Below are positions 53,727 to 64,000 of a stretch of 64,000 bases of DNA, piece by piece. The notes below the pieces were generated by a model that saw only the letters and a program-made list of their open reading frames with translations, did no database searches and was not told where the DNA came from. Both the position numbers and the translations under genes were made by a program. Position 1 is the stretch's first letter, and each line of letters starts with the position of its first letter. The stretch lies in NCBI RefSeq assembly GCF_027460265.1, contig NZ_JAPZBC010000001.1, positions 1,240,001 to 1,304,000 on the forward strand, read 5' to 3'. The stretch comes from Streptomyces sp. WMMC940 (GTDB lineage: Bacteria > Actinomycetota > Actinomycetes > Streptomycetales > Streptomycetaceae).

Positions 53727-55148
53727 ATGAGTCCAGTCGTCATCGCCGTGGTGGGAGTCGCCGTACTCCTCGTCCTGCTGGCCCTCGTCGTCATCACGCG
53801 ATACAAGGTCGCAGGCCCCAGTGAGGCGTTCATCATCACCGGCCGGCGCGGCAAGGAGGCCACCGATCCCGAGACCGGGCGGGTCTTCACCGACAACAGC
53901 GGCCAGAAGGTCGTCGTCGGCGGCGGCGTGTTCGTCGTGCCCTTCGTGCAGCAGAGGTTCACCCTCGACCTCTCCAGCAGGCACATCCCCGTCGCCGTCC
54001 GGGGCGCGGTGACGCTGCGTGGCATCAAGGCCAACCTGGAGGGCGTGGCGATCGTCAAGGTCGGCGGGAGCGAGGACTCGATCCGGGCCGCCGCCCAGCG
54101 GTTCCTCGTCCAGCAGGACGGAATCGTCGGCTTCACCCAGGAGGTGCTCTCCGGCGCGCTGCGCTCCATCGTCGGCCGGATGTCGGTGGAGGACATCATC
54201 CGGGACCGGGCCGCCTTCGCCGGCCAGGTCGCGGAGGAGGCCGAGGCCAGCCTCTCGGGACAGGGCCTCGTGCTGGACGCGTTCCAGATCCAGGACATCA
54301 CCACCGAGGGCTCCTACCTCGAGGACCTCGGACGCCCGGAGGCGGCGCGGGCCAAGCAGGAGGCCGACATCGCCGAGGCGGTGGCCCGGCGGGCGTCGGA
54401 GCAGGCGCGGCTGAAGGCCGAGGAGGAGATCGCCGTCGCGCAGCGGACGTTCGCCCTCAAGCAGGCCGAGATCAAGGCGGAGACGGACGAGGCGGCGGCG
54501 AAGGCCGCCGCGGCCGGGCCGCTCGCCGAGGCCGACCGGCAGCAGGAGATCCTCAGCCAGCAGGAGAAGGTCGCGGAACGCCGGGCGGCCCTGACCGACA
54601 GGGAACTCGACACACAGGTCCGCAAGCCGGCCGACGCGGCCCGGTACCAGGCCGAGCAGGAGGCCGAGGCGCGTCGTGTCGCCCTGGTGAAGCAGGCCGA
54701 GGCCGATGCCCAGCGCGCCCGGCTGACCGGTGAGGGCGAGAAGGCGCACCGCGCGGCGCTCGCCGACGCGGTCCGTATCGAGGGCGAGGCGGAGGCCGCG
54801 GCGATCGCCGCCAAGGGGTCCGCCGAGGCGGAGGCCATGCAGAAGAAGGCAGACGCCTTCGACCGGTACGGCGACGCCGCGGTGCTGCAGATGCTCGTCG
54901 AGGTACTGCCGCAGGTGGTCGGCAAGGCCGCCGAACCGCTCGGCGCGATCGACAAGATGACCGTCATCTCCACCGACGGCGCCGGCAAGCTGCCGCGAGC
55001 CGTGGCGGACAACGTCGCCCAGGGACTGGAACTCCTGGGTTCCACCACGGGGGTCGACCTCGCCGAGCTGCTGCGGGGCATCACCCAGAAGGGTCCGAAG
55101 CCGGAGCCCGCCAAGGCCGTGGAGAACGGGTCGGTGCCGATCACCTGA
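53727..55148 (+). CDS. Flotillin (SPFH domain) protein
   Basis: A 473-residue membrane-associated scaffold. An N-terminal membrane segment (VVIAVVGVAVLLVLLALVVI) precedes the SPFH/PHB domain (YKVAGPSEAFIITGRRG through DAFQIQDITTEGSYLEDLGRPE). A long Ala/Glu-rich coiled coil with EIAVAQRTFALKQAEIKAE and repeated EAEA stretches follows. The end (LLRGITQKGPKPEPAK) is flexible. It is expected to form oligomers in membrane rafts together with the NfeD-like protein. Confidence 0.93.
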   Translation: MSPVVIAVVGVAVLLVLLALVVITRYKVAGPSEAFIITGRRGKEATDPETGRVFTDNSGQKVVVGGGVFVVPFVQQRFTLDLSSRHIPVAVRGAVTLRGIKANLEGVAIVKVGGSEDSIRAAAQRFLVQQDGIVGFTQEVLSGALRSIVGRMSVEDIIRDRAAFAGQVAEEAEASLSGQGLVLDAFQIQDITTEGSYLEDLGRPEAARAKQEADIAEAVARRASEQARLKAEEEIAVAQRTFALKQAEIKAETDEAAAKAAAAGPLAEADRQQEILSQQEKVAERRAALTDRELDTQVRKPADAARYQAEQEAEARRVALVKQAEADAQRARLTGEGEKAHRAALADAVRIEGEAEAAAIAAKGSAEAEAMQKKADAFDRYGDAAVLQMLVEVLPQVVGKAAEPLGAIDKMTVISTDGAGKLPRAVADNVAQGLELLGSTTGVDLAELLRGITQKGPKPEPAKAVENGSVPIT

Positions 55149-55672: not shown

Positions 55673-57631
55673 CTACCGGGCCCGGGGCCCGAGGAGTTCC
55701 GCGAGACCACGGCGCGTGGCGGCGACGACCACGCGGTCACCGGGGCGCAGCAGGTGTCCCGGGTGGAGGTCGAAGAGCAGACCGGTGGTGTGGTGCGTCC
55801 CGTCGTCGGGCGGGGCGGCGGAGAGGTCCGGACGCCGGTCGCCCGGCGCCGTCATGTCCAGGGCGAGCACCCGCCATCTGCCCGGACTGATCGCTTCTGC
55901 GATCGTGTGGCCCTCCAGCTGCGGCAGGTCGGCCACTTCGAGTGCGGCGAAGAGGAGCACCCGGCGCTCGACGGAGACGGCTCCAAGTACCTGACGGCCC
56001 ATCATGGCTCCGGCGAAGGCGGGGGCGGAGAGCGACGTCACGCTTCTGCTGCGGGTGAGTGCCCCGGGATGCGCGGCACGCAGCGTCCGGTAGACGGCGG
56101 TGGCGAAGTCGTCGTCGTACAGCCGCAGTGCCACCCGGAGGTCGGGGGCGATCGAGCGGGCGTAGAGGGCGGCTTCGAGATTGGTGGTGTCGGAGCTGGT
56201 GAGGGCGAGCAGCGCGTGCGCCCGGTGGGTCCTGGCGGCCTCGAGCACGCCCTCCTGTGTGACGTCCCCGATGATCACGGGCACGCGCAGCCGGCGGGCG
56301 AGGGCCACGCCGCGCGCCTCGGGGTCGTTCTCGACGCAGACGACGGGCGTGCCGAGCTCACGCAGCCGGCCGAGCACACGGGTGCCGACCTTGCCGAGGC
56401 CCAGCAGGACGACGTGCCCGCTCAGACCGCGTGGAGGCCGGCGCAGGGCGGTCGCCGAGCGGAAGGAGCTGAGTGCTTCCAGCACGGCGGCGACGAGCAG
56501 GGGCAGCAGGAGGAGTCCCACGAGCCCGGTCAGCAGCTGAAGGACCTGACGGTCGGGCTCCCCGCCGACCGCGGGGTCGTTGATGGAGAAGAGGTCGAGG
56601 AGCGTGATGTAGGCGGCGTGGAGCGGGTGGCCGCCCATGGTGAGCCAGGACGCGACGGCCAGGGCGGTGACGGCCGCGCCGACGCCCGCGAACGACCAGC
56701 GCACCCGGCGGGAGAAGAGCTCCCGGAACGGCAGTGCGGGACCGCTCAGACGGCTGCCGGGCCCGGCTTCCGGGCCGGTGACGGCTTCGAGCACGATCCT
56801 CCCGCGGCCGGACGCCGCGGCCACGGCCCCGTCGTCGGGCAGCAGGAGCGGCCCGTCGGAACCGCTGCCGTCGGATCCCTCCACGCCGGCGGGGTCGCTG
56901 CTGGTGGAGGACAGCAGCGCCAGGGTGCACAGACCCTGGTCCACGGTCCCGCCGCGTCCCGGCGGGGGCCTCTCGGAGGTGCGCAGGAGCAGCCCGTCGG
57001 CCTGGACGATCTTGCTGGTTCCGGTGACGGCGGTCGCGGCGAGCGCCGGAGCGGCGGTGTCGGCGTCCGACAGGACGGTGGTGGACGCGTCGATGTCGTC
57101 GGCGTCCATCCCGGGTACGGCGAGTACGGCCGCCTGGTCCAGCAGCTCCTCCAGGTGCTGGCCGAGCTTGCGGTTGTAGAGGCGGATGACCAGACGCAGA
57201 CGGGGGTTCAGCCGGCGGGCGGTGAGCGCGGCACGGATGTTGGTCTCGTCGTCCTCGTGCACCAGGGCGAGCGCCTGCGCGGTCTCGACCCCGGCGTCCC
57301 GGAGCGCGACATCGTCGGGATCGTCCGTTTCCCTCACGGACACGGGCATCTCCTCCGGACGACCGGCTCCGCCGTTCACGGCCGAACGGCCCGCTCCCGT
57401 ACGGACGATGCCCGCCGACACCCTGCCGAGGAGGGCGAGGGCCCGGCCGCCCGACGGGGCGTTCGCGTCGGCGGGCGGACCCGTGGACGAGCGGCTGGGC
57501 GGGACGAGGAGCGTGACCTGCTGCCGGTAGACGTCGCGGAGTTCGGCGGCGAGCCGATGGGCGAGGGCGTCGTCACCGCTGACGAGCATGTGGCCCGGGG
57601 CGGGCCGCGCCTGCTGAGGAATGGGATGCAC
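55673..57631 (-). CDS. Two-RCK (TrkA-N) putative ion channel without the TVGYG filter
   Basis: A 652-residue protein with an RCK/TrkA-N-like domain at each end: GHMLVSGDDALAHRLAAEL near the start and GHVVLLGLGKVGTRVL near residue 405, each followed by VHEDDETN / LTSSDTTNLEAAL. Between them are two membrane helices (311-331, 361-387) with a re-entrant-like loop (LLDLFSINDPAVGGE). The layout resembles CASTOR/POLLUX-type channels; the K+ filter TVGYG is missing. GTG 57631 is used; an ATG at 57589 is possible. No Shine-Dalgarno is obvious. Confidence 0.8.
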   Translation of the reverse strand: MHPIPQQARPAPGHMLVSGDDALAHRLAAELRDVYRQQVTLLVPPSRSSTGPPADANAPSGGRALALLGRVSAGIVRTGAGRSAVNGGAGRPEEMPVSVRETDDPDDVALRDAGVETAQALALVHEDDETNIRAALTARRLNPRLRLVIRLYNRKLGQHLEELLDQAAVLAVPGMDADDIDASTTVLSDADTAAPALAATAVTGTSKIVQADGLLLRTSERPPPGRGGTVDQGLCTLALLSSTSSDPAGVEGSDGSGSDGPLLLPDDGAVAAASGRGRIVLEAVTGPEAGPGSRLSGPALPFRELFSRRVRWSFAGVGAAVTALAVASWLTMGGHPLHAAYITLLDLFSINDPAVGGEPDRQVLQLLTGLVGLLLLPLLVAAVLEALSSFRSATALRRPPRGLSGHVVLLGLGKVGTRVLGRLRELGTPVVCVENDPEARGVALARRLRVPVIIGDVTQEGVLEAARTHRAHALLALTSSDTTNLEAALYARSIAPDLRVALRLYDDDFATAVYRTLRAAHPGALTRSRSVTSLSAPAFAGAMMGRQVLGAVSVERRVLLFAALEVADLPQLEGHTIAEAISPGRWRVLALDMTAPGDRRPDLSAAPPDDGTHHTTGLLFDLHPGHLLRPGDRVVVAATRRGLAELLGPRAR

Positions 57632-57798: not shown

Positions 57799-57812
57799 TA
57801 GCGTCGGCGGCA
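57799..57812 (+). promoter_or_regulatory. -10 box for a probable leaderless SDR transcript
   Basis: TAGCGT (57799-57804) is followed after 7 bp by the ATG at 57812 and no Shine-Dalgarno site is present, which suggests transcription starts at the start codon. Confidence 0.5.
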
Positions 57813-58894
57813 TGCGCGTACTCGTCACAGGAGGCGCCGGCTTCATCGGCGCACACATCGTCTCGGCACTCATCGGGCGGGGGCACGAACCGGTGGTCCT
57901 GGACGCCTTGCTGCCCACCGCGCACCACGGGCCTCCGGCCCCGCCGGAGACCGGGTTCGTCCACGGCGACGTCCGCGACACGACCGTTCTCGCGGCGGTT
58001 CTGCACGGAGTGGACGCGATCTGCCACCAGGCGGCGATGGTGGGGCTCGGCAAGGACTTCGCCGATGCGCCCGGCTATGTGAGCTGCAACGACCTGGGGA
58101 CGGCGACGCTCCTCGCCGCGGCGGCCGAGGCGCGGGTGCGTCAGGTGGTGCTCGCCGGCTCGATGGTCGTGTACGGGGAGGGGCGCTACACATGCCCCCG
58201 CCACGGCGCGGTGCGGCCGGGGCCGAGGTCGGCGGCCGATCTGGCGGCGGGGCGGTTCGAGCCGGCGTGCCCGCGGTGCGGCGCGGAACTGGCCCCGGGT
58301 CTCGTCGACGAGGACGCCCCGTGCGACCCGCGCAACGTGTACGCCGTGACGAAGCTGGCGCAGGAGCACCTCACGGCCGCATGGGCACGTGCGACGGACG
58401 GCCGGGCCGTGTCCCTCCGTTACCACAACGTCTACGGGCCGGGGATGCCCCGGGACACCCCGTACGCGGGAGTGGCCTCCTTCTTCCGGTCGGCGCTGGC
58501 CCGGGGTGAGGCGCCCCGCGTGTTCGAGGACGGTGCCCAGCGACGGGACTTCGTCCACGTCCGGGACGTCGCCGAGGCGAACGTCGTGGCCCTGGAGGCG
58601 GTCGCCGAACGGGAGGCGGGCGTTCTCACCGCGTACAACACGGGCAGCGGGGAGCCCCGCACCGTCGGCGAGATGGCGGCGGCCCTGGCGGCCGCGTGCG
58701 GAGGGCCCGACCCGGTCGTCACCGGTGAGTTCAGGCTGGGGGACGTCCGGCACATCACGGCGGACTCACGCCGGTTGCGCCGCGACCTCGGATGGTCGTC
58801 CCGCACGGGATTCCGCGAGGGCATGGCCGAGTTCGCCCGTGCGGCGCAGCGCGCACCCGGCGCCGCACACGCCGCCGGCACTTCGCCGTCCTGA
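57812..58894 (+). CDS. NAD-dependent epimerase/dehydratase with inserted zinc-ribbon-like motif
   Basis: A 360-residue extended SDR likely acting on a nucleotide sugar. VLVTGGAGFIGAH binds NAD, Y177-x3-K181 in NVYAVTKLAQEH is catalytic. After the VVYGEG strand an insertion carries C128-P-R-H131 and C153-P-R-C156, a zinc-ribbon-like pair not found in ordinary UDP-glucose epimerases. RRDFVHVRDVAEAN and YNTGSGEPRTV are typical SDR motifs. It starts the locus that also holds GT2, DUF2064, methyltransferase, molybdo-oxidoreductase and GT87 genes. The exact sugar is unknown. Confidence 0.85.
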   Translation: MRVLVTGGAGFIGAHIVSALIGRGHEPVVLDALLPTAHHGPPAPPETGFVHGDVRDTTVLAAVLHGVDAICHQAAMVGLGKDFADAPGYVSCNDLGTATLLAAAAEARVRQVVLAGSMVVYGEGRYTCPRHGAVRPGPRSAADLAAGRFEPACPRCGAELAPGLVDEDAPCDPRNVYAVTKLAQEHLTAAWARATDGRAVSLRYHNVYGPGMPRDTPYAGVASFFRSALARGEAPRVFEDGAQRRDFVHVRDVAEANVVALEAVAEREAGVLTAYNTGSGEPRTVGEMAAALAAACGGPDPVVTGEFRLGDVRHITADSRRLRRDLGWSSRTGFREGMAEFARAAQRAPGAAHAAGTSPS

Positions 58895-59170
58895 GTCCGG
58901 GGCCCGAGGACCAGGCGTCGGCGAGACGGCGGGGCGATCGCCGTGCGGCGGCTGCCGGGCATCCAGCGCGGCCCTGCCGGCTGCGGCGCGGGCGGCCCGC
59001 CCGACAGCGCAACGGCCCTGCCCCCGCGCGGACACCACCGGCGGCGGCGCGGGACGTCCGGTCACCGCGTCGCGCCGCTCCCGGCCCCCGGTACGCGGCA
59101 CCCGGCGGACCGCGGCGGACGGGGTGCGTTCCGGCGACGCGGTACGGCACCGCTGCTCACGGAGGATGAC
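58895..59170. other. Gap between the SDR gene and the GT2 operon
   Basis: No gene is supportable in this stretch of about 275 bp. It ends at a 17-bp element shared with the molybdo-oxidoreductase promoter region. Confidence 0.45.
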
Positions 59171-59187
59171 GTCCGCGTTTCGTAAGG
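59171..59187 (+). promoter_or_regulatory. 17-bp shared element, copy 1 (GT2 operon)
   Basis: GTCCGCGTTTCGTAAGG lies 36 bp before the GTG at 59224. An identical copy, in the matching orientation and at similar distance, precedes the molybdo-oxidoreductase gene (62898-62882). It may be an operator or part of a promoter for an alternative sigma factor. Confidence 0.65.
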
Positions 59188-59223
59188 GGTCGATGTCCGC
59201 TTTGTTCGCCGCCGATTCGTACG

Positions 59224-59898
59224 GTGAAAGTCGTGACCACTGACGTCGTACTTCCCTGTCTGAACGAGGCCGGGGCGCTGCCCTGGGTCCTCGAACGCGT
59301 CCCCGCCGAATGGCGCGCCATCGTCGTCGACAACGGCTCCACGGACGGCTCCGCCGGAATCGCCCGCGAGTTGGGGGCGACCGTCGTGCGCGAGGAACGG
59401 CGGGGCTTCGGGGCGGCCTGCCACGCGGGGCTGCTGGCCGCGGAGGCGGACATCGTGTGCTTCTGCGACTGCGACGCGTCCCTGGACCCCGGACTCCTCG
59501 TCCCCTTCGTCCGTGCCGTGGCGGAAGGCGAGGCCGACCTGGTGCTGGGGCGGCGACGGCCCGCCGGCCGGGGGGCCTTCCCGGCGCACGCCCGCGCGGG
59601 GAACCTCGCGCTGTCCTGGATGCTGCGCCGGCGGACGGGTCTGAGGCTCCACGATCTGGGTCCGCTCCGGGCGGCGCGCCGCGAGGGGCTGTTGGGGCTG
59701 GGTCTGACGGACCGTCGCAGCGGCTATCCGCTGCAGATGGTGGTGCGTGCCGCGGACGCCGGCTGGCGGGTGCGGGAGGAGGACGTGCCCTATCTGCCCC
59801 GGACCGGGAAGTCGAAGGTGACCGGGACCTGGCGCGGCACCTGGCAGGCGGTGCACGACATGCGCCGGGTGCTGGGCGAGGCCGGTGGTGCCCGGTGA
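59224..59898 (+). CDS. Glycosyltransferase family 2 (dolichol-phosphate-sugar synthase-like)
   Basis: A 224-residue GT2 enzyme. DVVLPCLNEAGALPWVL and IVVDNGSTDGS are typical, CFCDCDASLDP carries the metal-binding acidic motif, and EEDVPYLPRTGKSKVTGTWRGTW resembles the C-terminal loop of DPM1-like enzymes that make polyprenyl-phosphate sugars. It has no membrane segment. GTG 59224 is used; GTG 59233 is an alternative. It leads a tightly coupled operon with the DUF2064 and methyltransferase genes and could supply a lipid-linked sugar to the GT87 enzyme encoded nearby. Confidence 0.87.
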   Translation: MKVVTTDVVLPCLNEAGALPWVLERVPAEWRAIVVDNGSTDGSAGIARELGATVVREERRGFGAACHAGLLAAEADIVCFCDCDASLDPGLLVPFVRAVAEGEADLVLGRRRPAGRGAFPAHARAGNLALSWMLRRRTGLRLHDLGPLRAARREGLLGLGLTDRRSGYPLQMVVRAADAGWRVREEDVPYLPRTGKSKVTGTWRGTWQAVHDMRRVLGEAGGAR

Positions 59899-60605
59899 CC
59901 ACGCTTCTCGTCATCGCCAAGGAACCGGTACCGGGCCGGGTGAAGACACGGCTGTGCCCTCCCTTCAGCCCGGCGCAGGCGGCGCTGCTCGCCGAGGCCG
60001 CGCTCGCCGACACCCTCGCGGTGGTCGCCGGGCTTCCCGCGGAGCGTCGTGTGCTCGTCCTGGACGGGACGGCCCGCGACTGGCTGCCGTCGGGCTTCGA
60101 CGTGGTGCCCCAGGGCACGGGCCGGCTCGACGAGCGGCTGGCCGCGGCGTTCGCCCTGTGTACGGGCCCGGCGCTGCTGGTGGGGATGGACACCCCGCAG
60201 CTCTCGGCGGACGTCCTCGCTCCTGTGCTCGCGCCGCGGGCGTGGCACGAGCACGACGCCTGGTTCGGGCCCGCGGCCGACGGCGGCTTCTGGGCGCTGG
60301 GACTGGCCGCACCGGATCCGGAACTGCTGCGCGGAGTACCGATGTCCGTGCCCGGGACCGGGGCCGCGCAGCGCCGCCGGCTGGTCGGCGCCGGTCTGCG
60401 CGTGGGCGACCTGCCCACCCTGCGCGACGTGGACACCGCCGCGGACGCGCGGCTGGTGGCCCGGGAGGCGGCGGGAAGCCGGTTCGCGGCCGTGTACGCC
60501 CGGCTGGTCCCGGCGTCGACCGGACCGGACCGCGCGGACCGGTCCCGGACCCGGCCCGCCGCCGCGCGACCCGGAGACGGTCGTTCGCCGGCGGGTCCGC
60601 GATGA
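59895..60605 (+). CDS. DUF2064 / TIGR04282-type nucleotidyltransferase-like protein
   Basis: A 236-residue GT-A-like protein: LLVIAKEPVPGRVKTRLCPPFSPAQAALL at the N-terminus is the family signature, LLVGMDTPQLSADVL the acidic metal site, and GPAADGGFWALGL the conserved G-x-A-x-D-G-G-F-W motif. Related proteins are annotated in arsenosugar or phospholactate-type pathways, but the activity is unknown here. It overlaps its neighbours by 4 bp at both ends (GTGA and ATGA). Confidence 0.88.
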   Translation: MTTLLVIAKEPVPGRVKTRLCPPFSPAQAALLAEAALADTLAVVAGLPAERRVLVLDGTARDWLPSGFDVVPQGTGRLDERLAAAFALCTGPALLVGMDTPQLSADVLAPVLAPRAWHEHDAWFGPAADGGFWALGLAAPDPELLRGVPMSVPGTGAAQRRRLVGAGLRVGDLPTLRDVDTAADARLVAREAAGSRFAAVYARLVPASTGPDRADRSRTRPAAARPGDGRSPAGPR

Positions 60606-61267
60606 CGGCGACCGCGTGGCGCGCCGACCCCTACACGAACGCGCTGCGCACGGGCCGCGGGCCGCTCTTCCTGCGTCGTCGCGACGGGTGGTTGCTGCCC
60701 CTGGAGGTGGAGCGCTGGTGCGAGGGACCGGACTCCGCCGACCTGACCGTGCTCAGCCGCTGCCACGGGCCCGTGCTGGACATCGGCTGCGGCCCCGGCC
60801 GGCTCGTCGTCGCGCTCGGGGCGAGGGGACGCCGCGTGCTCGGGATCGACGTGAGTCCGGAGGCGGTGGCCCGTACCGTCCGGGCGGGCGGAACGGCCCT
60901 CCTCCGGTCGGTCTTCGAACCGTTGCCCGACGAGGGCCGCTGGGGAACGGCGCTGCTGATCGACGGCAACATCGGCATCGGCGGAGACCCGGCCGAGCTC
61001 ATGCGGCGCGTGTCCGAGGTCACCGCGCCCGGAGCGGTGCTGATAGCCGAGACCTCCGCGGAGGACGAGGACGCCGACGAACGCGTCGAGGTCACCGTCG
61101 TCAACGGCAGGGGGGAACGCGGGGCCCCGTTTCCCTGGGCGCGCCTCGGGGCCCGCGCCCTGTGCGAGCACGCGGCGGGCGCCGGCTGGACCCCGGCCGG
61201 GCGGTGGACGGCGGCCGGGCGCAGCTTCGTCGAACTGCGCGGCTCCGCTCAGCGCCGCGGGGCCTGA
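60602..61267 (+). CDS. Class I SAM-dependent methyltransferase
   Basis: A 221-residue methyltransferase: VLDIGCGPGRLVVALGARG is motif I, VLGIDVSPEAVA the acidic end of strand 2, and ALLIDGNIGIGGDP the motif IV region. N-terminal RADPYTNALRTGRGPLFL is shared with partners of DUF2064 clusters. It is coupled to the DUF2064 gene. Its last 19 bp overlap the convergent membrane protein gene. The substrate is likely the product of the same pathway. Confidence 0.87.
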   Translation: MTATAWRADPYTNALRTGRGPLFLRRRDGWLLPLEVERWCEGPDSADLTVLSRCHGPVLDIGCGPGRLVVALGARGRRVLGIDVSPEAVARTVRAGGTALLRSVFEPLPDEGRWGTALLIDGNIGIGGDPAELMRRVSEVTAPGAVLIAETSAEDEDADERVEVTVVNGRGERGAPFPWARLGARALCEHAAGAGWTPAGRWTAAGRSFVELRGSAQRRGA

Positions 61268-61704
61268 CGCGCCCGCCCGCCGTCGTCCTCCGTGTCCCGC
61301 GGTCCGCGGCGAAGCCTCCGGACGATGAGGACCAGGCAGGCGACGCCGGCAACCGCTCCCAGCACGATCACCAGGTTCCGTCCGTAGGGCAGGGGCAGGG
61401 CCGACGGGTTGGGCGGGGTGCCGGGGCGGAGCAGCAGCGGCAGCGTGATCAGCACGAGGGAGCCGCCCACGACGAGCGCCCCGCGCACCACGCCCCGGGC
61501 GGGCAGGGCCGCGACCAGCATCCCCACGCCGAGAACGAGCGGAGCGAGCACCGCGTCGTGCAGCACGAGCGCTCCCCCCAGCCACACCACCACTCCCCAG
61601 GCGTCGCGGGCGGAGAGGACCAGCCCCGTGCCCACGGCCATCAGCACCACCCCCAGGCCTCCGACGGCGTACCGGAGCAGCGCGGGGCGTGGAAGCCGCG
61701 GCAT
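61249..61704 (-). CDS. Small membrane protein, 4 TM segments
   Basis: A 151-residue integral membrane protein: four hydrophobic segments (RYAVGGLGVVLMAVGTGLVL, WGVVVWLGGALVLHDAVL, GALVVGGSLVLITLPLLL, NLVIVLGAVAGVACLVLIV) and a basic C-terminus. It begins within the stop of the molybdo-oxidoreductase gene (TGATG overlap), so it is translated with it and may be a membrane partner. No known family was recognised. Confidence 0.75.
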   Translation of the reverse strand: MPRLPRPALLRYAVGGLGVVLMAVGTGLVLSARDAWGVVVWLGGALVLHDAVLAPLVLGVGMLVAALPARGVVRGALVVGGSLVLITLPLLLRPGTPPNPSALPLPYGRNLVIVLGAVAGVACLVLIVRRLRRGPRDTEDDGGRARQAPRR

Positions 61705-62837
61705 CACAGGACCTCCAGTCGGGTGACCCACTTCGTCTGCAGCACACCGGGACGGTTCGGGGCGATGATCCGTGCCGGGAAGCCGTGGTCGGCCGACAGC
61801 ACCTGTCCGTTGAGGGTCAGCGCCAGGAGGGTCAGCGGGTCGTGGGCGTACTCGCGGCCCATCTCCATCACGCGGTAGGCGCCCCGCACCTCCAGCGAGA
61901 CCACGCGCAGCCCCGCGTCCCCGTCGGCGCCCGCGCGCTCCAGGAGGTCCCGGACGCGTACGCCTCCCCAGTGCGCCGAGGCGCTCCATCCCTCGACGCA
62001 GGCGATCGGCAGTACGGCCTCGGCCTGTGGAAGTGCCCGCAGTTCGTCCAGGGTGAGCGTGTAGCGGCGCGGCCCCAGCACCTCCAGGCGCCAGTCCCGG
62101 ACCATCGCGGCGGTGACGCCCGCGGCGGCGGCCGTCCGGTTCACCGGCAGCCCCTGCGGACCGATCCCGGGATGTCTCGGTGCCAGCAGGTCGAGTCTCT
62201 TCAGCGGAGTGAGCGCCTGACCGACGGTGGTGAGGGTCACGGCGGTGACCGCCGCGCCGACGGCCACGAGCAGCGACCTGCGGTCCGGGGCGTCCTCCGG
62301 CGGCAGTGTGAGCGTGCCGGGCGACCTGCGGCTCCAGTGGTCCCTGATCTCTGGCGCCTTGACGGCCACGTGCAGCAGCACCGCACCGGCGACCAGCCAG
62401 GCGACGGCGAAGTGGACCGGTACGAACGAGAACGGCCACGGATACCACTCGACGATGTTCAGCAGCCCGGTGAACAGCTGGAACACGGCCGCGGCGACCA
62501 GGACCCCCACCGAGAGCCGTTCCAGGCCGTGCTTCACGGAACGCACCGGCGGCCACACCCACAGCCGCGGGTACACCGCCCAGAGCTTCGCCAGGAGCAG
62601 CGGGATGGCCGCCAGGCCGGAGGCGACATGGAGCCCCTGGGTCAGCCGGTAGCCCCACACCGGCCGCGACGGCAGCTCGTTCGCGAGCCATCCGGGCGGG
62701 TGCTGCAGGTAGTGGCTGATGAGGCCGGTGAGGAAACACACGGCGATCGCGGCGCCCAGCCAGCGGCCGATCGCCGTGGCCGTTCGGGCGTCGTGGAGTC
62801 TGCCGGAGAAGGACGGTGCCCGTAGTCGCGGTCTCAT
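61704..62837 (-). CDS. Membrane molybdopterin oxidoreductase with cytochrome b561-like N-terminus
   Basis: A 377-residue protein. The N-terminal half has four or five membrane helices with spaced histidines (LISHYLQHPPGWL, GLHVASG, FVPVHFAVAWLVAGAVLLHV), as in a b-type cytochrome domain. The C-terminal half is a sulfite oxidase-like Mo domain with IACVEGWSASAHWGGVRVRDLL, whose Cys binds Mo, and FPARIIAPNRPGVLQTKWVTRLEV. ATG 62837 is preferred because a shared promoter element at 62882-62898 lies upstream; an in-frame GTG at 62882 falls inside that element. The reaction is unknown. Confidence 0.85.
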   Translation of the reverse strand: MRPRLRAPSFSGRLHDARTATAIGRWLGAAIAVCFLTGLISHYLQHPPGWLANELPSRPVWGYRLTQGLHVASGLAAIPLLLAKLWAVYPRLWVWPPVRSVKHGLERLSVGVLVAAAVFQLFTGLLNIVEWYPWPFSFVPVHFAVAWLVAGAVLLHVAVKAPEIRDHWSRRSPGTLTLPPEDAPDRRSLLVAVGAAVTAVTLTTVGQALTPLKRLDLLAPRHPGIGPQGLPVNRTAAAAGVTAAMVRDWRLEVLGPRRYTLTLDELRALPQAEAVLPIACVEGWSASAHWGGVRVRDLLERAGADGDAGLRVVSLEVRGAYRVMEMGREYAHDPLTLLALTLNGQVLSADHGFPARIIAPNRPGVLQTKWVTRLEVL

Positions 62838-62852
62838 GTATCCATGAGACCG
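62829..62852. repeat. 10-bp perfect inverted repeat at the start codon of the molybdo-oxidoreductase gene
   Basis: CGGTCTCATG-TATC-CATGAGACCG contains ATG 62837 on the - strand in one arm. In mRNA it could fold over the start site, or it could be an operator in the divergent gap. The other arm starts a three-codon reading frame (ATG GAT ACA TGA) overlapping the real start. Confidence 0.7.
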
Positions 62853-62881
62853 CCGGGACGGCCCGGACGGCGGCTCGGACA

Positions 62882-62898
62882 CCTTACGAAACGCGGAC
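62882..62898 (-). promoter_or_regulatory. 17-bp shared element, copy 2 (molybdo-oxidoreductase gene)
   Basis: On the - strand GTCCGCGTTTCGTAAGG is identical to 59171-59187 and ends 44 bp before ATG 62837. It lies in the divergent gap also serving the GT87 gene at 62951. GGAAC followed after 16 bp by CGTC occurs just upstream on the - strand, a possible ECF-type promoter, though the first copy lacks the same -35. Confidence 0.65.
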
Positions 62899-62950
62899 GG
62901 CGCATCCCACGTGCCGTTCCCGCGTCCGCGGCGCTGCCAGGCTGGGCGCC

Positions 62951-64000
62951 ATGACCAGCCGCCGCACCGCCGCGACCGTCCTGCTCCTCGCCGGCCTCGT
63001 CGCCGTGCTCGTCGGCACCGTGCGCGCGGACGACTACCACTCCGCCCCCGGACGTCTGTCCCTGTGGTACGCGGCCGCCTGGCTGCTCTTCGCGGCGGTT
63101 CTGTGGGCGCTGCGGAAGGTCCCGGACCGGACCGCGGTGGTGCTCGTCATGGCCGGCGCGGTCGCCGTCGCCGCGACGGGTCTGGTCGCACCGCCGCGCA
63201 CCAGCACCGACTCCTACCGGTACGCCTGGGACGGCCGGGTGCAGGCGGCCGGCATCTCTCCGTACGACCACGTGCCCGCGGCCCCCGAACTGGTCCCGCT
63301 GCGCGACGCCTGGCTCTTCCCCGAGGGCCGTGCCGCCTGCGCCGGACCCGACCGGGCGGCCGTGGGCGACGGCGTGTGCACCCGGATCAACCGGCCCCGG
63401 GTGAACACCGTCTACCCACCCGTCGCGGAGGGCTACTTCCTCCTGGTGGAGACCCTGTCGCCCGAGGGCGCGCGGCACAAGCCGCTGCAGACCGGCGGGG
63501 CGTTGCTCTCGGTCGCCACCGCGGCCGCGCTGCTGCTGATGCTGCGTCGCCGCGGTGCGCCGTGGAGAGCGGCCTACTGGGCCTGGTGCCCGGCGGTGCC
63601 CGTCGAGGCGGTGAACAACGCCCACGTCGACGTGCTCGGCGTGCTGTTCTCCGTCGCCGCCCTGGCCGCCGTCGTCCGGCACAGGGCGGCGGGCGGGGCC
63701 CTGCTGGGCGTGGCCGTGGCGACGAAGCTGCTGCCCGCCGTGCTGATCCCGGGCGCGCTGTCCGGCGTGCGGCGCGCCCGGGACGCCCTGGCCGTGCTGC
63801 TGCCGGCGGCCGGCGTCGTCGTCGTGCTCTATCTGCCGTACGTGTTGGCGTCGCGGGGCTCGGTCCTCGGTTTCCTCGGCGGCTACGTCCGGGAGGAGGG
63901 TTACGACGACGCTTCCGCCAGGAACCGCTATGCGCTGCTGCGTCTGCTCCTGCCGGACGACTGGGCGCTGCCCGCCGTGGCCGCGGCGATTCCGGCCGTC
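62951..64000 (+). CDS. GT87-like membrane mannosyltransferase, 3' end outside window
   Basis: The frame is open for 350 codons to the window end. The protein is multi-spanning: an N-terminal signal-anchor (TVLLLAGLVAVLVGTV), then segments such as WYAAAWLLFAAVLWAL and VVLVMAGAVAVAATGLV. An outside loop carries STDSYRYAWDGRVQAAGISPY with an acidic residue after the first membrane helix, as in polyprenyl-phosphate-mannose dependent GT-C enzymes (GT87/DUF2029). VATKLLPAVLIPGAL is another conserved segment. It is divergent from the molybdo-oxidoreductase gene. Confidence 0.83.
   Translation, partial: MTSRRTAATVLLLAGLVAVLVGTVRADDYHSAPGRLSLWYAAAWLLFAAVLWALRKVPDRTAVVLVMAGAVAVAATGLVAPPRTSTDSYRYAWDGRVQAAGISPYDHVPAAPELVPLRDAWLFPEGRAACAGPDRAAVGDGVCTRINRPRVNTVYPPVAEGYFLLVETLSPEGARHKPLQTGGALLSVATAAALLLMLRRRGAPWRAAYWAWCPAVPVEAVNNAHVDVLGVLFSVAALAAVVRHRAAGGALLGVAVATKLLPAVLIPGALSGVRRARDALAVLLPAAGVVVVLYLPYVLASRGSVLGFLGGYVREEGYDDASARNRYALLRLLLPDDWALPAVAAAIPAV

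Follow-up and report, generated by a model that had tools for sequence, protein, structure and literature searches.

The 64,000-nucleotide stretch of Streptomyces sp. WMMC940 analyzed here (the window; contig NZ_JAPZBC010000001.1, positions 1,240,001 to 1,304,000) holds near its end a locus, at 57812-64375, that probably makes a 5-deoxy-5-methylthio-pentofuranose and attaches it to an extracytoplasmic glycan in a variant form of the mycobacterial methylthioxylose (MTX) pathway, with a membrane molybdo-oxidoreductase (MoOR) acting on the thioether or sulfoxide of the sugar. Coding frames were judged by lists of open reading frames (ORFs) and codon composition, and families were assigned with Pfam and NCBIfam. 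A short-chain dehydrogenase/reductase (SDR), a family 2 glycosyltransferase (GT2), a DUF2064 protein, a methyltransferase, MoOR and a GT87 glycosyltransferase are all present and coding. These are the families that a first-pass annotation had listed; that list overlooked a small membrane protein gene at 61249-61704.

The SDR gene (57812-58894, plus strand; nucleotide-sugar epimerase type, Pfam Epimerase E 1e-47) is followed, after a gap of about 330 bp, by a plus-strand operon of three genes whose stop and start codons overlap at 59895-59898 and 60602-60605. These are GT2, an MtxS-type polyprenyl-phosphate sugar synthase (59224-59898, start perhaps at 59233; Pfam Glycos_transf_2 E 1.3e-21), the DUF2064/TIGR04282-like protein (59895-60605; E 9e-22), and a class I S-adenosylmethionine methyltransferase (60602-61267; Pfam Methyltransf_23 E 2e-8). 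Converging on the operon from the minus strand are MoOR (longest ORF 61704-62882, likelier start 62837; Pfam Oxidored_molyb, PF00174, E 5e-24) and the 151-aa small membrane protein, whose start overlaps the MoOR stop. The polytopic GT87 gene (62951-64375, plus strand; Pfam GT87 E 2e-12 for the full gene) runs past the window end at 64000.

The gene set is conserved among actinomycetes and is a real functional unit, as the first-pass annotation had supposed. We searched 246 genomes of the class for DUF2064 and compared stretches of at most 20 kb around 100 matches. Leaving WMMC940 itself aside, 118 genomes were positive, and the 100 loci come from 98 of them, with 18 family labels. Searches with the window proteins by tblastn found GT2 in 99 of the 100 loci, SDR in 95, the methyltransferase in 91, MoOR in 77, GT87 in 31 and the small membrane protein in 30. 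Six-frame profile searches, with profiles built from the same loci and thresholds that we set ourselves, gave DUF2064 100, GT2 99, SDR 95, methyltransferase 91, small membrane protein (TM or TM2 type) 78, MoOR 77, histidine kinase 67, response regulator 67, MtxT-type protein 63, methylthioadenosine phosphorylase (MTAP) 39 and GT87 31. Because the loci are related, these counts are not independent. Gene order and strand differ widely among the loci, so that the set recurs in shuffled orders. The methyltransferase and MoOR occur together in 76 loci, the methyltransferase alone in 15, MoOR alone in 1 and neither in 8. A TM/TM2-type protein, called at a low threshold (28 bits), accompanies MoOR in 77 of 77 loci and is found in 1 of the 23 loci that lack MoOR; MoOR is never without it. 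One Streptomyces-label locus (L015, genome G238) has GT2-DUF2064, MoOR and the two-component genes each doubled inside 20 kb, the copies facing opposite ways, and one MtxT-type gene.

Co-occurrence is kept at the level of whole genomes, where its loss would have spoken against a unit. DUF2064 is found in 119 of the 246 genomes and SDR (E<=1e-70) in 116, with both in 114 and discordant genomes numbering 5 and 2. MoOR (E<=1e-50) is present in 90 genomes, all 90 of which have DUF2064 or SDR and 88 both; at the same threshold it was absent from all 125 sampled genomes without DUF2064 and SDR, and 26 genomes with both lack it. In some genomes (e.g., G057, G070, G074 and G123) MoOR lies outside the locus.

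Much of the core is accounted for by a described pathway, MTX capping of mycobacterial lipoarabinomannan; the first-pass annotation knew of no described pathway that joins a Mo-oxidoreductase to these families. MtxS (Rv0539) makes MTX-P-C50 and MtxT (Rv0541c) transfers MTX (PMC8780516), and MTX sulfoxide is reported alongside MTX in lipoarabinomannan (PMC8531672). With the GT2 of the Mycobacterium paraense locus as a stand-in for Rv0539, the window GT2 was the best match in its own genome (217 bits, 55% identity; next match 72 bits). Its best NCBIfam match, dolichyl-phosphate hexose transferase, scored far under the cut-off, and its family bears out the earlier proposal of a polyprenyl-linked sugar donor. 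A scan with the Mycobacterium GT2 of locus L095 yielded 80 named loci, mostly from Mycobacterium, with DUF2064 in the stretch in 68 and an MtxT-type polytopic protein in 67. Thirty-six of them, from Mycobacterium, have the order MTAP-SDR-(two other genes)-GT2-DUF2064-<polytopic, without methyltransferase, MoOR or kinase, and L095 is of this short type too; 33 others, including Mycolicibacterium and some non-mycobacteria, have the methyltransferase in 32, MoOR in 24 and the kinase in 27; the remaining 11 are GT2-only matches from other taxa. The Rv gene numbers fit the order GT2-DUF2064-polytopic, given the identities that we presume for Rv0535, Rv0536 and Rv0540. Among 120 listed rows of MtxT-type homologues, 4 bear the name methylthioxylose transferase, given by one source. 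MTAP, in the 39 loci that have it, spans 9 of the 18 family labels and adjoins SDR in 19; by our own arithmetic, a single gene placed anywhere in 6 Mb would be expected inside a given 20-kb stretch in about 0.3% of cases. In WMMC940 itself MTAP is unlinked to the locus (C1:4393228-4394088) and scores above the NCBIfam cut-off. Given the GT2 counterpart, MTAP and the MtxT-type neighbors, the locus is, as judged by its sequences, related to the MTX pathway and not identical with it. A literature search found no published explanation for MoOR, the methyltransferase and the small membrane protein in this setting.

No match to MtxT, with the M. paraense protein as query, was found in the whole WMMC940 genome. 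The window has GT87 in its stead (PF09594, 47.8 bits against a gathering score of 25), a protein without significant similarity to the MtxT family profile (probability 11%, E 0.0026). Among the 100 loci, 63 have the MtxT type, 31 have GT87, 6 have neither and none has both; the 20 loci with the Streptomyces label (f1) divide into 13 MtxT, 5 GT87 and 2 with neither. On a concatenated SDR, GT2 and DUF2064 tree of 96 rows (a single FastTree run, midpoint root), the type switches at least nine times by parsimony. Given this mutual exclusion and these repeated switches, GT87 most likely replaces MtxT, and a GT-C role in the MtxT slot agrees with the transfer outside that had been suggested for it.

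The SDR carries S117, Y177 and K181, conserved in at least 90% of 90 sequences, and we propose that it is a C3 epimerase. Its zinc-ribbon-like insertion (Cys128-Cys156, window 58193-58279) precedes the YxxxK motif and is conserved over the class: in the CPxH...CPxC pattern, Cys128, Cys153 and Cys156 are kept in 97, 97 and 93% of the same sequences, and His131 in 81%. The DUF2064 protein, whose three closest relatives among the matches listed are Streptomyces proteins 96-91% identical to it, has by fold comparison a nucleotidyltransferase-like fold of the CofC/GlmU/IspD type, and those of its fold neighbors with a stated function are nucleotidyltransferases. We therefore propose from this predicted fold that it is a nucleotidylyltransferase for 5-methylthiopentose 1-phosphate, a likelier role than the cytosolic decoration first suggested for it. 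The methyltransferase motif DGNxGIGGxP is conserved in at least 90% of 80 sequences.

MoOR is predicted to be a heme-b/molybdopterin protein with five helices, of the Sco3746 type. The predicted model contains five long helices, its membrane part resembles heme-b cytochromes in fold, and the protein has five transmembrane helices, conserved His that would hold heme b, twin Arg before helix 5 and a C-terminal Mo domain with Cys. H85, H157, H171, R201, R202 and C295 are invariant among 25 sequences (392-aa ORF numbering), and in an alignment with chicken sulfite oxidase C295 falls opposite Cys185 (numbering derived from the chain offset). The Mo domain is placed outside, in keeping with the earlier view of a membrane oxidoreductase acting there. 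The small membrane protein has no Pfam or NCBIfam family match.

The GT2-DUF2064-methyltransferase and MoOR-small membrane protein gene groups have one dedicated element in common. GTCCGCGTTTCGTAAGG, of 17 bp, has only two copies in the 7.67-Mb genome at up to 2 mismatches, one before the GT2 operon (59171-59187, plus strand) and one between MoOR and GT87, before MoOR (62882-62898, minus strand); each copy ends 44-45 bp ahead of the gene that follows it, taking 59233 as the likely start for GT2 and 62837 for MoOR. The motif GTTyCGTAAGG had 35 matches in the 1.93 Mb of 101 loci. Eighteen precede the GT2 operon, among them 4 that carried the label of DUF2064 fragments and were placed by their distances; 15 precede MoOR and 2 are unplaced, of which one sits 0.7 kb upstream of DUF2064. 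The reversed control had none. In 23 other Streptomyces-label genomes GTCCNNGTTTCGTAAGG gave 16 matches in 13 genomes, all at most 1.1 kb from a DUF2064 or MoOR match; an exact match was missing in 7 of the 20 locus-bearing genomes and in all 3 without the locus, and the control gave 0. Upstream comparison in other families mostly found no shared element. The regulator acting on the element is probably the two-component pair found in most loci. In WMMC940 the histidine kinase (G000:C1:1470209-1471318) and response regulator (about 1471456-1472124; L206) are encoded some 170 kb away from the locus and are 80% and 77% identical to their copies in another locus (L012).

We infer the following pathway. 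MTAP, encoded elsewhere, would supply 5-methylthioribose 1-phosphate, which DUF2064 would couple to a nucleotide; SDR would then epimerize the nucleotide sugar at C3, ribo to xylo, and GT2 would load the methylthiopentose onto polyprenyl phosphate. Once the lipid-linked sugar has been flipped, GT87 would take the part of MtxT and transfer the methylthiopentose outside. The methyltransferase may contribute one further methyl group. At the outer face, MoOR and its small partner would trade electrons with the quinone pool via heme b and act on the sugar thioether; most likely MoOR would restore the thioether by reducing the sugar sulfoxide, in the way that MsrPQ restores methionine in proteins.

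The direction of the MoOR reaction admits another reading. In the same glycan pathway MoOR might be an oxidase that deliberately turns the methylthio sugar into a sulfoxide (MSX-like) and hands the electrons on to the quinone pool; the surface sugar would then be delivered oxidized. We consider this rather unlikely: the likeness of the membrane part to heme-b cytochromes gives no direction, and the MTX sulfoxide data come from M. tuberculosis, while the 36 short-type Mycobacterium loci have no MoOR, and oxidation there may therefore need none. Alternatively, the sugar might be 5-methylthiopentose or another modified pentose and MoOR with its partner a general, MsrPQ-like protein repair system that is merely co-regulated. 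All 25 MoOR members are homologous to MsrP, matching the MsrP and SoxC models weakly, and MsrPQ is described as repairing methionine sulfoxide in proteins (PMC5449189). The score of MoOR against the MsrP equivalog model is 41.7 bits, below the 207 cut-off, and for a general repair enzyme its absence from every sampled genome without DUF2064 and SDR would be odd, as would a shared 17-bp element found nowhere else in the genome; we regard this reading as quite improbable.

A different sugar, for example a common pentose or deoxypentose in furanoside form or a 5-substituted ribose like that of arsenosugars, with MTAP acting as a nucleoside phosphorylase on another 5'-modified adenosine, also seems unlikely. 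The names of TIGR04282 and TIGR04283 and the unlinked MTAP of this genome would fit such a sugar, but both models score under their cut-offs (117.7 vs 134 and 42 vs 182), the two MTAPs tested both exceed the NCBIfam methylthioadenosine-phosphorylase cut-off, and nearly two-thirds of the loci (63/100) have an MtxT-type partner. That the locus is a chance neighborhood of unrelated carbohydrate genes is hardly credible: no support for it was found beyond the unlinked two-component genes, which show that parts can move away, and against it stand the 114 genomes with DUF2064 and SDR together as opposed to 7 discordant ones, the shuffled orders in 18 family labels and the shared element. Two observations slightly lower our confidence in the methylthio-pentose pathway that we favor. 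In the M. paraense genome (G057) a MoOR relative lies elsewhere than at the locus, and for a few of the DUF2064 fold matches no function is stated.

Upstream of the locus, the window contains a flotillin/SPFH-domain gene at 53727-55148, for which no match was found in the 100 related neighborhoods (E<=1e-5). A large minus-strand ORF (55673-57600) resembles, by eye, a two-domain TrkA/RCK-type NAD-binding protein.

MTX is taken to be a distinguishing mark of tuberculosis lipoarabinomannan, and a diagnostic antibody is directed against it. If the pathway proposed here is right, methylthio sugars are more widespread in actinomycetes than known, and the origin and function of MTX and the specificity of antibody tests would need another view. 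The missing MTX steps, activation and epimerization, would become testable in harmless Streptomyces strains, and the locus would give a first biological setting to a Sco3746-type molybdo-protein and to this DUF2064 branch. Going further, we tentatively suggest, at somewhat less than even confidence, that actinomycetes beyond Mycobacterium, including Streptomyces, put a methylthio-pentose on a surface glycan and maintain this sugar through a redox cycle dedicated to it, in which a quinol-linked, molybdenum-dependent, fused MsrQ-MsrP-like enzyme, co-regulated with sugar synthesis, reduces the sugar sulfoxide outside. The sugar would then be a rechargeable surface antioxidant. To our knowledge, and by a literature search, no molybdenum enzyme for a carbohydrate sulfoxide has been described.

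Among known systems, the MTX pathway is the closest. It shares with this locus a GT2 counterpart, SDR and DUF2064, which lie nearby in Mycobacterium loci too, and a GT-C enzyme for transfer outside. The present locus differs in having GT87 for MtxT and, in addition, the methyltransferase, MoOR and small membrane protein, and MTAP, which adjoins SDR in Mycobacterium loci, is unlinked here. The acceptor in the MTX pathway is lipoarabinomannan; that of the present locus may be a different one. With TIGR04282/DUF2064, the 'arsenosugar biosynthesis glycosyltransferase', our protein shares a sequence family, below the cut-off; the name contrasts with functional fold neighbors that are nucleotidyltransferases. 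The three-component pentofuranose systems with GT136 (PMC11127046) likewise use a polyprenyl-phosphate pentofuranose donor, export and GT-C transfer outside, with a diversifying epimerase as here; their donor comes from a UbiA-type synthase that uses a phosphoribosyl donor, whereas a nucleotide sugar and GT2 would serve here. MsrPQ (YedYZ) resembles MoOR in joining a heme-b membrane part to a Tat-type Mo domain with Cys at the Mo-ligand position; MoOR differs in being one fused polypeptide, under the MsrP cut-off and linked to sugar genes. The polytopic heme-b/molybdenum-cofactor proteins described by Tooke et al. (2017; PMC5449189) form the family of Sco3746, and MoOR resembles Sco3746, by its published description, in the five helices, membrane His, twin arginine just before helix 5 and C-terminal Mo domain. 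That description, so far as we drew on it, assigns Sco3746 no function, whereas MoOR is here tied to a glycan pathway.

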